Origin: Pseudomonadales bacterium
GTDB taxonomy: Bacteria; Pseudomonadota; Gammaproteobacteria; Pseudomonadales; Azotimanducaceae
Length of the DNA stretch: 64,000 bases
Assembly: GCA_028285415.1 (NCBI GenBank)
Contig: JANQPF010000010.1
Span: forward strand, 186,001 to 250,000
Direction: 5' to 3'
The notes below the pieces were generated by a model, which saw nothing but the letters and a program-made list of their open reading frames with translations, was not told where the DNA came from and searched no databases. Below, in pieces: positions 42,182 through 46,796 of this stretch (positions are counted from its first letter, which is position 1; each line of letters begins with the position of its first letter). The position numbers and the translations under genes were made by a program.

Positions 42182-42620
42182 CAGGACTTTTCGCTATGTA
42201 AAAATTACCAGAATCCCCAGATAACAATGTTTTTACAGGTTTTATGTCACTTTGTGTAACATTCGGGTTGACTCGCTGGCAGGGTTTGAAAAGAATTGGT
42301 GCGTGCATAAGGACATGCGTGATTTGCAGGAACGCCCGTATACAGCCTTCTCCGGTTGACGGGCGGCAAGAAGGCTTGCAAAGGCCAAATTGCAAAATAG
42401 AAGAACAACAAAAGCGCAGATGCGCCCTGCTGAACCTCTCAGAATGGAAGCTAAGTTGTCGTTGGAGTCGCTGACGTTCTGGAGTAGTGACTCTTGAAAT
42501 GCCGATGTGGCGTCGCAATCTAAATTGAGACATCGCGTCGATGAGAGTGCCAGTCCTGCGGTTGCAGCTGTGTCTACACTTCAGATACAGCCGATTCGCA
42601 GGAGCGGTGCGGGACGCGGG

Positions 42621-42648
42621 AATGATCAGCTGCGCGGCAGCGGTCATT
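42621..42648 (+). promoter_or_regulatory. 5'-UTR hairpin before the small membrane protein
   Basis: AATGATCAGCTGC (42621-42633) pairs with GCAGCGGTCATT (42637-42648) around GCG, with one bulge and one G-U pair. The ribosome site AAAGGAGG follows at once. A competing pairing, ATTGCAC (42646-42652) with GTGCAAT (42684-42690), would place that site and the start codon inside a loop. Regulation by this switch is only a hypothesis. Confidence 0.4.
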
Positions 42649-42670
42649 GCACAAAGGAGGAACGAGACAG

Positions 42671-43090
42671 ATGCGAATGATCAGTGCAATTATCGGCTGT
42701 ATCCTGTTGGCTTTTGCGGTCCTGCACGCGTTCCTCCCCTATAGCTCCTCCTTTATTTATATCTATGGCGCCGGCGCGCTGCTGGCTTTCATCACCGTCA
42801 AACCCGGCCGTCTGGGGATCAACACCGCAAGGTTCTTTGCGCTTTGTACAACCGCGGTGATGTTTTTCTACTTCGCCGGCTTTTTCAAAATGGCGCCGTA
42901 CTTCACGGAAACCTGGTACAAGACCGGTGCCGCCCTGGAAGGTGTGGGCATGCTCCTGTCCGCGTTTCTGATGATCCCGATTCTGTCCTGCTACAGCTGC
43001 CTGCTGAAAGCTGAAGGCTGTGAACACTTCAAGCAGAGCAAGCGCCCTGCCTTTTTCCGCGTTCCGGAAGACATTCAACAGAACCCCTGA
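42671..43090 (+). CDS. Small four-helix membrane protein, unknown function
   Basis: 139 residues from the ATG at 42671 with AAAGGAGG ten bases upstream; ATG 42677 is also possible. Four hydrophobic segments lie at about 4-20, 27-42, 53-72 and 90-113, ending with a charged Cys-containing tail (CYSCLLKAEGCEHFKQSK). I do not recognise a family. It stands alone between the long gap and the large lipoprotein gene. Confidence 0.72.
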   Translation: MRMISAIIGCILLAFAVLHAFLPYSSSFIYIYGAGALLAFITVKPGRLGINTARFFALCTTAVMFFYFAGFFKMAPYFTETWYKTGAALEGVGMLLSAFLMIPILSCYSCLLKAEGCEHFKQSKRPAFFRVPEDIQQNP

Positions 43091-43154
43091 TTGGCCGTTA
43101 CTTCCCGGCCTGGCCGTTTGGGCTGTCAACCGATAGCCGCCTGACTCGTTCTTA

Positions 43155-43176
43155 TTCCTACACCTTGATGTAGGAA
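43155..43176 (+). promoter_or_regulatory. Perfect hairpin covering the ribosome site of the 43184 lipoprotein gene
   Basis: TTCCTACA (43155-43162) pairs exactly with TGTAGGAA (43169-43176) around CCTTGA. The 3-prime arm contains the AGGAA ribosome site, and the ATG begins eight bases later at 43184. When folded, the site would be occluded, so translation control (thermal, protein- or small-RNA-mediated) or a DNA operator dyad are both possible. Confidence 0.6.
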
Positions 43177-43183
43177 CAGAACC

Positions 43184-45070
43184 ATGTACCAACCAAGCAG
43201 CCCCCTGCCGCTACCGCGGCGCGCTCGTGTTGTTGCGCAAAAGCGCGGCTGGCACGGTTTCAAAGATCTCGTTTGCGCCTTCAGCCTGCTCGCGCTTGTG
43301 CTCCTGGCACACGGTTGCGGGGGAGGCGGCGGCAGCTCTGCATCCGCGCCCGCGGCCGATGCGCCGCCCGAACTCGGTGAGCTCTTCATTGGGATCACGG
43401 ATGCGGAGGGAGATTTCCTGCGCTATGCGGTGGATGTAGAAGCGCTGACGCTCGAGCGCGCCAACGGCGACGTCGTCGAAGCCCTGCCGCTGACCACGCG
43501 TATCGATTTCACCGAGCTCACCGAAGTCACAGAATTCCTGAGCATTGCGACCGTGCCGGCTGGCGTTTACGAAAGCGTCACGCTGTCCATGGATTTTGGC
43601 GATGCTGACATCGTCGCGCAGGACGCAAACGGCGATGCGGTTGCCCTCGTTGCCCGCGATACAACGGGCGCGCCGCTGGGATTGACCAACGTGACGCTGA
43701 ACTTGAGCAGCGGTGACGTCGTGCGGGTGCGTGTCGGTATTCCCGCTGCCTTCAGTCTCGACTTCGACCTTGACGCATCCAACGAGATTGATCTTGCGAA
43801 TGCCGAAGTGATTGTTGAGCCCTTTCTGCTGGCCACACCGGAGTTGGAGGAAGATCGTGAGCACCGGGTGCGCGGTGTGCTCGAAGCGGTGGATACCGAT
43901 GCGTCTACCTTCGACCTTGCCGTTCGGCCTTTCCGTCATCGCACGGGACAGTTTGGCGAGTTCACCGTCAGCGTCGACGATGCCACCCGTTACGAGGTTG
44001 ATGGCGTTGGGTTCACGGGCGCAGCCGGACTTGAAGCCATGAGCCAATTGGATGCTCGTGCACCGGTGGTTGCCAACGGCGCCGTTGACGGCGTCGGCCT
44101 GCAGGCTGAGGTTGTTCTGGCTGGTTCCTCAGTGCCGTGGAGCGATGCGGATGTGGTCAAAGGCGTTGTTGCGGCACGCGCTGGCGATGAGCTGATCGTG
44201 CGCGGCGCGCGGATAGAGTTCAGCGACGGCACTGAAGCCTTTCGCGGTTCGTTTACCGTCAATCTATCCGACACTACCGGCGTATCTGCCCCAGGGGTCG
44301 ATAACACTCTCCTGTCCAAAGACAGCATCTCCGTAGGACAGCGCCTTGTCGCCTGGGGTGAATTTGTCGACGACGAAACGCTAGATGCCGCGCGTGTACG
44401 CATGCACATGAACCAGCTGACGGCAGAGGTTGTGGAGGCGGAACCGCTGGCGGTCAGCCTTTTCTACCTCAATGGCCGTCGCCCGGCGGCGTACGATTTC
44501 TCCGGTACGGGCGTTACCCCGGCTGATGACGCTGATCCCGCTTTCTACGAAATCGACACGGCCACGTTGCCGGGTGCGACGATAGAAGGCGGCGACCTGG
44601 TCCGCGTGCGTGGCCTCGTCAACGAGTTTGGTGCAGCTCCTGCCGACTTCAACGCCCGCACGGTCATCGATGTCGACACGGATATGCGCGGTGCGCTGCT
44701 GAAGATCAGCTGGGAATCGGGTACCAGCACGCCGTTCACGAACTTGTCCAGCGAACGGGTTGACGTTGATCTCACCGAAGCGCGCAAACTGTTGGCAGTA
44801 CGCGGCGTGCCGCGGGACTTCATCGAGCTGATGGACGAGGTAGGCCTCGTTGCCCCTGCCTCGGGTATGGGTGTCTACGCGGTCAAAGTCCGGGGTGCGG
44901 GTGAAGTGCACGTTTACCGCTCGTTTGCGGACCTGACGACAGAGCTCATGGCGCAGCTCGATGCCGGTCGCCTGTTGCATCGCATCAGCGCGCAGGGTCG
45001 GTACAATGTCGGCTCGGCCGAATTGACCACTGGACGCGCTGGCTTTGTTTTCAGCTCCACGGACGAGTAA
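43184..45070 (+). CDS. Large DUF4382-like lipoprotein
   Basis: 628 residues. After a long positive N-region, a hydrophobic stretch ends in LLAHGC (Cys45), followed by Gly/Ser. Residues about 65-215 match the DUF4382 pattern (GELFIGITDAEGDFLRYAVDVEALTLER, VPAGVYESVTLSMDFG, FDLDASNEIDLANAEVIVEP). The rest is repeated beta-barrel-like modules (VRGVLEAVDTDASTFDLAV, VKGVVAARAGDELIVRGA, LVRVRGLVNEFGAAP), DUF5666-like. It is probably an outer-membrane or surface lipoprotein of unknown role. A hairpin occludes its ribosome site and another follows its stop. Confidence 0.8.
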   Translation: MYQPSSPLPLPRRARVVAQKRGWHGFKDLVCAFSLLALVLLAHGCGGGGGSSASAPAADAPPELGELFIGITDAEGDFLRYAVDVEALTLERANGDVVEALPLTTRIDFTELTEVTEFLSIATVPAGVYESVTLSMDFGDADIVAQDANGDAVALVARDTTGAPLGLTNVTLNLSSGDVVRVRVGIPAAFSLDFDLDASNEIDLANAEVIVEPFLLATPELEEDREHRVRGVLEAVDTDASTFDLAVRPFRHRTGQFGEFTVSVDDATRYEVDGVGFTGAAGLEAMSQLDARAPVVANGAVDGVGLQAEVVLAGSSVPWSDADVVKGVVAARAGDELIVRGARIEFSDGTEAFRGSFTVNLSDTTGVSAPGVDNTLLSKDSISVGQRLVAWGEFVDDETLDAARVRMHMNQLTAEVVEAEPLAVSLFYLNGRRPAAYDFSGTGVTPADDADPAFYEIDTATLPGATIEGGDLVRVRGLVNEFGAAPADFNARTVIDVDTDMRGALLKISWESGTSTPFTNLSSERVDVDLTEARKLLAVRGVPRDFIELMDEVGLVAPASGMGVYAVKVRGAGEVHVYRSFADLTTELMAQLDAGRLLHRISAQGRYNVGSAELTTGRAGFVFSSTDE

Positions 45071-45094
45071 CTGCATTCGTGTACTTTCCCATTC

Positions 45095-45120
45095 GAGTGG
45101 GCACCAGAGCGTGCCCACTC
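45095..45120 (+). terminator. Strong hairpin between the lipoprotein and the sigma operon
   Basis: GAGTGGGCAC (45095-45104) pairs perfectly with GTGCCCACTC (45111-45120) around CAGAGC, 24 nt after the lipoprotein stop. Ten GC-rich pairs make a stable stem, but only TTG follows rather than a U-run. It probably terminates or stabilises the upstream message and favours the later sigma-factor start. Confidence 0.6.
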
Positions 45121-45139
45121 TTGCATGGGGTTCTTGAAG

Positions 45140-45679
45140 ATGGGTACACAGGCGGAGCTCAACGAGTTTCTGACAAGCGTCGAGAAGAGAGCATATTCGA
45201 TGGCAATGATGGCAGTTAAGAATCAGGATGACGCGCTCGACATCGTGCAGGACGTCATGATGATCCTTGCAAAGAAATACGCCGGGAAACCTGCTGGCGA
45301 GTGGCGGCCGCTGTTTTACCGCATCCTGCGCAACCGCATTACGGATTTCCATCGAGGAACGAGCGTAAGGCGTAGACTCTTCGGCTGGCTATCACCCAAC
45401 AGTGAACAACCTGACGAAAATCCGCTCGAACAGGTGCCTGGTCTGGAGCACCTGAATCCCGACCGTCAGGTCGAAATGGACGGCGCGCGTGACAAAATAG
45501 CGAACGCCGTGAGCCAGCTGCCGGAACGACAGCAGCAGGCTTTCATGCTGAGAGCCTGGGAAGGCTTTGATGTCAAAGCAACCGCCCGAGCCATGGGCTG
45601 TGGCGAAGGCAGCGTCAAAACCCACTACTCCCGAGCGGTGCATGCGCTGCGTAGCGCCCTGGAGGACTATCATGACTGA
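45140..45679 (+). CDS. ECF-type RNA polymerase sigma factor
   Basis: 179 residues from the ATG at 45140 (MGTQAELNEFLTSVEKRAY); ATG 45125 is possible but lies only 4 nt from the upstream hairpin. Region 2 is DDALDIVQDVMMILAKKYAG with the core-binding and -10 helix, and region 4 is LPERQQQAFMLRAWEGFDVKATARAMGCGEGSVKTHYSRAVHALR. The following overlapping genes (DUF3619-like, a small secreted protein, DUF3106) are the usual companions of this subgroup, so it probably controls an envelope response, perhaps with the DUF3619-like protein as a membrane regulator. Confidence 0.9.
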   Translation: MGTQAELNEFLTSVEKRAYSMAMMAVKNQDDALDIVQDVMMILAKKYAGKPAGEWRPLFYRILRNRITDFHRGTSVRRRLFGWLSPNSEQPDENPLEQVPGLEHLNPDRQVEMDGARDKIANAVSQLPERQQQAFMLRAWEGFDVKATARAMGCGEGSVKTHYSRAVHALRSALEDYHD

Positions 45680-46031
45680 GCAGAACGAAACCGATGATGC
45701 CTATGCCGAGCGTCTGGCCCGGACGCTGCGTGACGGTGAACAAGACTTACCGCCGGACGTCATCGAGCGTCTGACAGCCGCCCGCCGCGCGGCCGTAGAT
45801 GCCGCGGATGAGCCGGTGAAGCTGGTGTGGCCGCGCTATGCCGGTGCAGGGGCGCTGGCCACCGCCGCGGTCGTTGTTGTGCTCATGACGCAGCCCGAGG
45901 TGACACCGCTGCCGCCGCTCGATGCCGTCGAGCTTGCTGCGGCGCAGGATGCTGAGCTCCTCGAGGACCTGGAATTTGCCGCGTGGATGATTGCAATGGA
46001 AGAAGCGGATGAGCCGTCGAACTCGGGTTAG
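45672..46031 (+). CDS. DUF3619-like membrane protein, putative anti-sigma partner
   Basis: 119 residues from the ATG at 45672, overlapping the sigma stop by 8 nt. A cytosolic helical segment (DDAYAERLARTLRDGEQDLPPDVIERLTAARRAAV) precedes one membrane helix (GAGALATAAVVVVLM) and a short acidic tail (DAELLEDLEFAAWMIAMEE). This layout is that of DUF3619 proteins found beside sigma factors. Sequestering the sigma factor is inferred from position and topology. Confidence 0.8.
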   Translation: MTEQNETDDAYAERLARTLRDGEQDLPPDVIERLTAARRAAVDAADEPVKLVWPRYAGAGALATAAVVVVLMTQPEVTPLPPLDAVELAAAQDAELLEDLEFAAWMIAMEEADEPSNSG

Positions 46032-46293
46032 CTGGATCATGTTGTTGATTGGAACGAGCATATCGAGCATTCAAGCCGCACCACCGGCCACGGAGCTGAC
46101 GCTGTTCGATTTTCTGGGTGCCATGGTGGAAGACGAGGACGGCTGGGTGGACCCGCTGGATCTGCTGGACGAACCGGTGATTCAGGGGCTCGACAAAAAC
46201 GCTGGTAACGCTGGCGAAGAGGCGGCGGCGTCGACAACTAACACTCAGGCGCCGGATACGCCGCCTGTGAATGAAGAGGAGATGCAGCCATGA
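46009..46293 (+). CDS. Small acidic exported protein, unknown function
   Basis: 94 residues from the ATG at 46009 (MSRRTRVSWIMLLIGTSISS), giving a signal peptide that ends near IQA-AP; ATG 46039 is a shorter option. The mature part is acidic (LFDFLGAMVEDEDGWVDPLDLLDEP) with a Thr/Pro/Glu tail. It overlaps the DUF3619-like gene by 23 nt and the DUF3106 gene by 4 nt (ATGA), so it is a real cistron of the operon. I do not recognise a family. Confidence 0.75.
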   Translation: MSRRTRVSWIMLLIGTSISSIQAAPPATELTLFDFLGAMVEDEDGWVDPLDLLDEPVIQGLDKNAGNAGEEAAASTTNTQAPDTPPVNEEEMQP

Positions 46294-46796
46294 AGTATGC
46301 GAAGCTCCACAACCTGCTGCGCATTCTGCTGGTCACGGGATCGCTGCTGACGAGCCTCTCCGCCGCTGCGCTCGAGTGGTCTGATCTCGACGACACTCAG
46401 CGCAAAGTCCTGGCGCCATACGAAGAAGACTGGTCTTCGTTCGACGAAGCGCGCCAGGAGCAGCTGAGCCGCGGTGCCGCACGCTGGTTGAGCATGGATG
46501 AAGATGCGCAAGCTCAGGCCGTAGAGCGATTCGAGCGCTGGCAGCAGCTGAGTCCCGATAAGCGCGCCGAGCTCATGCAACGATGGCGAACGTTCCGCGA
46601 CCTCACGCCGCAGCAGCAACGTCGTCTGCGAGAGGGCATGCGGCGGTTCAGGCAGTTGCCCGCCGAGCAGCGCCAGCACCCCAGGCGCCAGTTCCGCAAC
46701 ATGAATGCCCAGGAGCGGGCGCGCGCCCTGCAGCGTATGCAGCGCCGGGCTGAACGGCTGCGTCGCGCCCAACCCGATCGTGTGCCCCGTCCCTGA
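46290..46796 (+). CDS. DUF3106 domain exported protein
   Basis: 168 residues with a signal peptide (LLRILLVTGSLLTSLSAAA) and the DUF3106 pattern: WSDLDDTQRKVLAPYEEDW, then helical repeats rich in Arg, Gln and Trp (ARWLSMDEDAQAQAVERFERW, LSPDKRAELMQRWRTFRDL, LTPQQQRRLREGMRRFRQL). The Arg/Gln-rich tail is basic. Periplasmic, probably a sensor or chaperone of the sigma system by analogy with Spy-like helical proteins; function unproven. Confidence 0.87.
   Translation: MKYAKLHNLLRILLVTGSLLTSLSAAALEWSDLDDTQRKVLAPYEEDWSSFDEARQEQLSRGAARWLSMDEDAQAQAVERFERWQQLSPDKRAELMQRWRTFRDLTPQQQRRLREGMRRFRQLPAEQRQHPRRQFRNMNAQERARALQRMQRRAERLRRAQPDRVPRP

Follow-up and report, generated by a model that had tools for sequence, protein, structure and literature searches.

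A hairpin over the ribosome site of a DUF4382 lipoprotein gene as a possible 5'-terminal damper in the mRNA of an ECF sigma-factor operon

In the present study, we found that the ribosome site of a putative lipoprotein gene was enclosed in a hairpin behind a two-box promoter motif of fixed spacing, in a window of 64,000 nt (the whole stretch of DNA that was analysed). The motif co-occurred with the gene of an ECF sigma factor, and both arms of the hairpin were kept at variable spacing among relatives. The RNA start, the reading of the promoter by the sigma factor and the effect on translation are what we infer, and we consider the chances evenly balanced that the hairpin, as the 5'-terminal element of an ECF sigma operon mRNA, damps translation of the lipoprotein. 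The leader and the first gene comprised the following features:

43124..43131, + strand: predicted promoter -35 element, TGTCAACC, conserved upstream of homologues with a fixed 15-nt spacer
43147..43150, + strand: predicted promoter -10 element, CGTT, conserved upstream of homologues
43155..43162, + strand: hairpin 5' arm, TTCCTACA, read from the sequence, with a CCTRC core kept across the genus
43163..43168, + strand: hairpin loop, CCTTGA, with sequence and length varying among relatives
43169..43176, + strand: hairpin 3' arm, TGTAGGAA, holding the ribosome site AGGAA (43172-43176)
43184..45070, + strand: putative lipoprotein of 628 aa, DUF4382 (DUF5666 below cut-off), from profile matches

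The arms of the hairpin at 43155-43176 paired exactly over 8 bp, and AGGAA ended 7 nt 5' of the lipoprotein ATG (43184). Reading of the sequence thus confirmed the original prediction of an exact 8-bp stem containing AGGAA before the ATG of a large lipoprotein gene. The RNA fold of 43145-43200 had an energy of -14.0 kcal/mol, compared with -6.3 +/- 2.0 for shuffled sequences (z -3.94; 0/200); five of its pairs involved GTTCT at 43148-43152, which lies probably 5' of the RNA start. The 22-nt hairpin unit alone gave -8.6 kcal/mol with 7 pairs in its best fold, and the ribosome site was base-paired in the most stable fold of the window's leader. As a palindrome, the hairpin was ordinary, since perfect 8-bp arms with loops of 3-8 nt were matched 18 times in the window (a longer stem may be counted more than once) and 8-15 times in five Markov shuffles. 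The dyad itself, with up to 3 mismatches, occurred once in the window (0.04 expected). A repeat element was considered and rejected, the dyad being unique in the genome at 0 mismatches; the five other genomic sites all needed 3 mismatches, and the total of 6 compared with 4 for a reversed control. A stem of at least 8 bp covering the ribosome site was uncommon: among 316 gene starts taken from 395 kb of this genome, it was observed at 2, the lipoprotein gene included, and a stem of at least 7 bp at 8, rates that are approximate because the starts were crude predictions (long frames, best-scoring start). The cost of opening positions -15 to -6 of the window's leader was 9.4 kcal/mol, between the 90th (8.4) and 95th (10.0) percentiles of the 316 starts.

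By comparing the upstream regions of homologues, we found the two-box element TGTCAACC-N15-CGTT at 43124-43150, which was also present upstream of two other gene families and of homologues elsewhere in the Gammaproteobacteria. The form T(C/A)AAC(C/G)-N15-CGT stood before 34/34 tabulated leaders, which were picked for bearing the motif and include some near-duplicates: five lipoprotein leaders of the genus, seven others of the family, 11 from outside the family, five of repeat-protein genes and six of small-protein genes. The variants in L027, L091, L092 and L098 were initially spotted by eye. In L004 and L094, the motif preceded a repeat-protein gene that itself lay upstream of the lipoprotein gene, and in L005 and L031 the distance from the motif to the aligned part was 334 and 273 nt, upstream; these two were left out of further comparison. 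No motif was found upstream of homologues including L023 (contig end), L025, L028, L035, L036, L038, L039, L041, L043, L099 and L105, several of the motif-less homologues being partial or weak matches; L040, L042, L044, L045, L100-L103 and L106 lay outside the motif survey. In PMC8103513, ECFs are described as first defined by features including AAC and CGT boxes and positive autoregulation, with an autoregulated share of about 55%, and the two-box element fits this AAC/CGT pattern. A sigma-70 promoter was also tried and rejected: a scan of 42600-45300 gave two sites, each of them within the sigma gene, and returned nothing for the region ahead of the lipoprotein gene. In ECF promoters, the RNA starts some 6-9 nt past the -10 box. 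Because CCTRC begins close to where the RNA is expected to start, the mRNA 5' end is probably formed by the stem; on the sequence, the start would fall near TTCC. The simplest reading is that the operon's own sigma factor recognizes TGTCAACC-N15-CGTT, and operon autoregulation is likely because the operon encodes an ECF sigma factor.

The original prediction had placed the hairpin and lipoprotein gene immediately upstream of a sigma-factor operon. This was borne out by a profile match identifying the next gene downstream as an ECF sigma factor. The remaining features of the likely operon were as follows:

45095..45120, + strand: intercistronic hairpin, GAGTGGGCAC-CAGAGC-GTGCCCACTC, a 10-bp stem lacking a T-run, with its end 19 nt short of the likely sigma start
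45140..45679, + strand: ECF sigma factor, NF006550/PRK09047 above cut-off by profile match (listed frame from 45125)
45672..46031, + strand: DUF3619 protein with one hydrophobic stretch (by eye)
45991..46293, + strand: small protein, start codon uncertain
46290..46796, + strand: DUF3106 protein, last gene of the likely operon

The sigma gene product scored 223.5 bits against NF006550 (cut-off 173). Since relatives aligned to the listed frame from residue 3-9, with MGTQAELN beginning at residue 6, the start at 45140 is likelier than that at 45125. By eye, the sequence before the sigma gene (45121-45140) showed little recognisable ribosome site, as did the corresponding region in most relatives of the genus; this hints that translation is weak or coupled. 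The 628-aa DUF4382 protein carried a lipobox-like LLAHGC (by eye). The DUF3619 protein is a candidate anti-sigma factor, and the C-terminal 79 aa of the small protein had no Pfam or NCBIfam match. A search of plasmids for the sigma factor gave 36 records, every one below 60% identity, and searches of a limited literature collection, by DUF3619 with sigma and by DUF3106, found no paper. A protein resembling the 147-aa one encoded upstream of the lipoprotein gene (42647-43090) was also seen by eye upstream of the sigma gene in G049 (L068), a genome that yielded no lipoprotein match.

The exact N15 motif was present at three sites in the window's genome: ahead of the lipoprotein operon, ahead of a gene for a repeat protein and ahead of one for a small membrane protein. 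Across the genus (40 genomes, the window's included), it occurred at 13 sites in 8 genomes, and 10/13 preceded one of these three gene families. The count is uninformative by itself, because a reversed control pattern also gave 13 sites (in 11 of the 40 genomes), and the evidence lies in place and co-occurrence; with N14-16 spacing, the window's genome had 4 motif sites versus 2 for the reversed control. A sigma orthologue was present in 9/40 genus genomes, and the exact motif was found in 6/9 sigma-bearing genomes versus 2/31 of the others (Fisher p = 0.0005). As for the sigma-bearing genomes with no exact motif, the variants AGTCAACC and CGTCAACC preceded the same families in G008 and G046, and the G050 contig ended within the leader. 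The exact sites in sigma-less genomes (L046, L047) and L050 (G048) did not precede the three families: a 172-aa frame lay 22 nt downstream of the L046 site, no frame of at least 50 aa started within 200 nt of the L047 site, and frames of 158 and 79 aa lay further downstream of the L050 site. The looser pattern GTCAACC-N15-CGTT added three sites in the window's genome, two within long open frames and the third with no long frame over it.

The repeat protein of the window's genome has 126 aa, DRxxDRLD-like repeats and a signal-like N-terminus (L018, G000:C2:816812-816838), and its family stood behind the same promoter in the relatives L049, L052, L055 and L094, at about 107-126 aa. It was also seen that the repeat-protein gene precedes the lipoprotein gene in L004 and L094 and the sigma gene in G047 (L070). 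The small membrane protein is hydrophobic and has 74 aa in the window's genome (L020, L056; G000:C10:28970-29244), with its family behind the same motif in L051, L053 and L054. In 4/6 small-protein leaders, ACA-(A/G/T)GGAGA-TGT spanned the ribosome site, a sequence that we take to resemble a CsrA/RsmA site. As a separate observation, L056-L059 had AGCTCA right after CGTT, a hexamer exactly complementary to the TGAGCT that lies at the small membrane protein's start codon, and L060, with a long leader, had ACTCAA, with TTGAGT closer to the gene.

A lipoprotein orthologue was identified in 7/40 genus genomes (that of G046 split over two contigs), with a protein identity of only 58-64%; an eighth match, in G047, was weak (30%). 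Promoter and leader were fully visible in L001, L002, L003, L022 and L024 reversed, and L023 was visible from CCTGC onward. The results indicated that CCTRC and GTAGG were kept in 5/5 fully visible promoter-linked genus leaders (4 distinct) and in the partial L023, which supported the earlier claim of a stem over the ribosome site. In the five complete leaders, CCTRC began 5-6 nt past CGTT and the gap between the arms was 8, 14, 14, 8 and 12 nt. Only four leader sequences of the genus were distinct, so that the conservation is partly shared descent: past CGTT, L002 and L024 do not differ, and L022 and L006 are apparently one contig, judging from length and leader. In a four-sequence alignment, 5/8 columns of the 5' arm were invariant versus 11/93 background columns (Fisher p = 0.002), and CCTRC was absent at the same place in the genus repeat- and small-protein leaders on the same promoter.

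The variable gap also bears on whether the dyad could be a DNA operator, an inverted repeat over the transcription start bound by a repressor. A dyad of 8 perfect base pairs around a 6-bp centre, placed immediately 3' of the promoter, would suit such a site; however, half-site spacing was not fixed (8, 14, 8 and 12 nt in four lineages), and the L003 arms CCTGC/GTAGG, imperfect as a DNA dyad, form a G-U pair in RNA. Because the arm spacing varies, RNA pairing fits better, and we regard the operator as very unlikely.

The pairing was further compared between each leader's own arms and arms swapped among the four lineages, which gave a mean of 3.0 versus 2.5 extra pairs, with 7/24 permutations reaching the observed total. 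Since the leaders' own arms had no significant advantage, covariation was not significant and the stem is conserved mainly as sequence. The original prediction had named relatives that keep the gene with a broken stem as evidence against it, and this was borne out in part. L004 (G006, same genus), where the gene lies second after the repeat-protein gene, had no CCTRC/GTAGG stem, a different local fold covering part of the ribosome site and start, and L027 and L091, of the same family, retained both gene and promoter, closure of their ribosome site not exceeding that of shuffles. Because L004, L091 and L027 keep the gene and lack the pairing, the pairing belongs to the genus rather than to the gene family as a whole. 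These results leave room for chance complementarity fixed by ancestry, in which GTAGGAG is a plain ribosome site that an ancestral CCTRC matched by accident. The non-significant arm swap, the commonness of 8-bp stems in the window and the lack of the stem in L091 and L027 are consistent with it, but the 5' arm was constrained well above its surroundings despite the low protein identity, and the genus controls on the same promoter had no such sequence; we consider accident unlikely.

The cost of opening the ribosome site was compared with that of sequences shuffled 5' of the site. In the five genus lipoprotein leaders it was 6.2-8.5 kcal/mol, compared with shuffle averages of 1.1-3.8, with p-values of 0.005, 0.002, 0.005, 0.015 and 0.12 (combined 1.6e-6, related leaders being treated as independent). 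Only L022 was non-significant (p = 0.12), and its 52-nt fold preferred another structure. On the same promoter, the excess was absent from five repeat-protein leaders (p = 0.74) and six small-protein leaders (p = 0.79). The rest of the lipoprotein family showed a weak excess (seven leaders, p = 0.03; only L098 below 0.05), and 11 leaders outside the family showed none (p = 0.68). Different 5' stems lay beside or over the ribosome site in L104 (CTCTGTCA/TGACGGAG), L098 and L092. In the leaders of three distant relatives, L009, L010 and L011, we observed a TGATC-AGGA-GATCA hairpin with the ribosome site in its loop.

In the model that we prefer, polymerase carrying the ECF sigma factor presumably encoded by the operon's second gene would start at TGTCAACC-N15-CGTT, and the first RNA nucleotides, CCUAC, would pair back onto GUAGG(A) and bury the lipoprotein ribosome site. 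The amount of lipoprotein made per mRNA would then stay low, and the repeat- and small-protein genes of the regulon would keep more open ribosome sites. The stem would be closed at any ordinary growth temperature and would therefore act as a fixed damper unless it is opened, whether through ribosome standby, by a protein or an RNA, or because the RNA starts elsewhere.

Control of the stem by temperature or a small RNA had been suggested originally, and the modelled melting gave no support to temperature control. For RNA starts from CGTT+5 to CGTT+10, the modelled chance of an open site lay between 1e-6 and 2.4e-4 at 37 °C and stayed under 1% at 50 °C, so that the site was more than 99% closed at 50 °C for every start tried. 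With a start at CGTT+6, the modelled chance that AGGAA was free rose from 6.5e-8 at 25 °C to 2e-6 at 37 °C, reaching 1.6e-3 at 60 °C. Starts at CGTT+8 to +10 would remove most of the 5' arm, and the modelled opening was still only about 2e-4 at 37 °C, rising to 9-13% at 60 °C. Because the modelled opening stays so low, temperature control at ordinary growth temperatures is unlikely. An RNA thermometer, in which warming would melt the stem and turn on the lipoprotein, would fit a ribosome site held in a stem close to the start codon; however, opening of up to 13% was reached only at 60 °C with the later starts, and no Rfam match at gathering scores was found in the window. We regard this reading as extremely unlikely.

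The modelled opening differed about 90-fold between starts at CGTT+6 and CGTT+10, and the sequence TTCCTACA permits alternative starts that include or omit the 5' arm. The boldest reading left, which we hold to be quite improbable, is a pyrC-like start-site switch within an ECF stress regulon, with nucleotide pools setting the lipoprotein yield per stress transcript. A start on the pyrimidines of TTCCTACA would produce an RNA that carries the whole stem and keeps its ribosome site tightly shut, and a start on an A further along would give an RNA with no 5' arm.

The main rival to the translation damper is protection of the 5' end: the stem would mainly guard the operon mRNA against pyrophosphate removal and against 5'-end-dependent decay, and the cover of the ribosome site would be a side effect of the short leader. 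The pairing sits directly at the presumed 5' end. In the genus leaders, the first 4 nt were 86% paired with a start at +6 and 84% at +7 (shuffles 29% at +7), and in other family leaders 82% at +6 and 54% at +7 (shuffles 37%). However, this pairing depended on the start, falling one base later to 51% in the genus and 36% in the rest of the family, and it was only 34% at +7 in L022. Moreover, it was less in the repeat-protein leaders (51%, shuffles 33%) and the small-protein leaders (40%, shuffles 37%), and all genus leaders seen had their 3' arm at the ribosome site. Taken as the main role of the stem, 5'-end protection is possible but rather doubtful.

Besides the leader hairpin, the gap between the lipoprotein and sigma genes was analysed. 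Among 17 loci examined, 14 had the sigma gene, 13 of them distinct (L008 and L096 are apparently one record), and a strong stem was found in the gap at 11/13 distinct loci, including L002, L003, L004, L006, L023 and L091-L095, the exceptions being L008/L096 and L098. A stem of at least 9 bp with at most two G-U pairs was present in 10/12 gaps (L098 left out; exceptions L023, with a longer, mismatched stem, and L096), compared with 6 of the 56 gaps of 30-150 nt between same-strand genes that were taken from 395 kb of the window's genome. Alignment of the intercistronic region gave no invariant column; the stems were therefore compared one sequence at a time. The element resembles an RNA structure that was conserved while its sequence turned over. 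Because the stems differ by lineage and that of the window has no T-run, a role in mRNA decay or in uncoupling lipoprotein from sigma expression would be likelier than plain termination.

Collectively, these results give the PRK09047-type ECF sigma family, with DUF3619 and DUF3106, a defined promoter and a regulon of three parts that can be tested. They suggest that leader RNA as well as promoter may set the output of each gene within one sigma regulon. If the stem acts as a damper, a lipoprotein expressed from an autocatalytic stress promoter would be held down after transcription.

The arrangement was compared with known systems. As in autoregulated ECF operons with an AAC/CGT promoter, AAC lies in the -35 element, CGTT forms the -10 element and the promoter stands ahead of the sigma operon, whereas here the leader bears a hairpin over the ribosome site and the first gene encodes a DUF4382 lipoprotein. 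As in leader hairpins that sequester the ribosome site, including RNA thermometers, the ribosome site lies in the 3' arm; however, the present stem is too stable to melt at growth temperature, and it had no Rfam match at gathering scores. In the pyrC leader of E. coli and Salmonella, a stem formed from the first transcribed bases, with a pyrimidine-rich start, covers the ribosome site. Here too, the presumed first bases are pyrimidine-rich and form a stem over the ribosome site, but the promoter is of ECF type, there is no pyrimidine gene and start-site switching is only conjectured. In the ompA leader, a 5'-terminal stem protects the mRNA; the present stem likewise stands at the presumed mRNA 5' end, with the difference that it includes the ribosome site.
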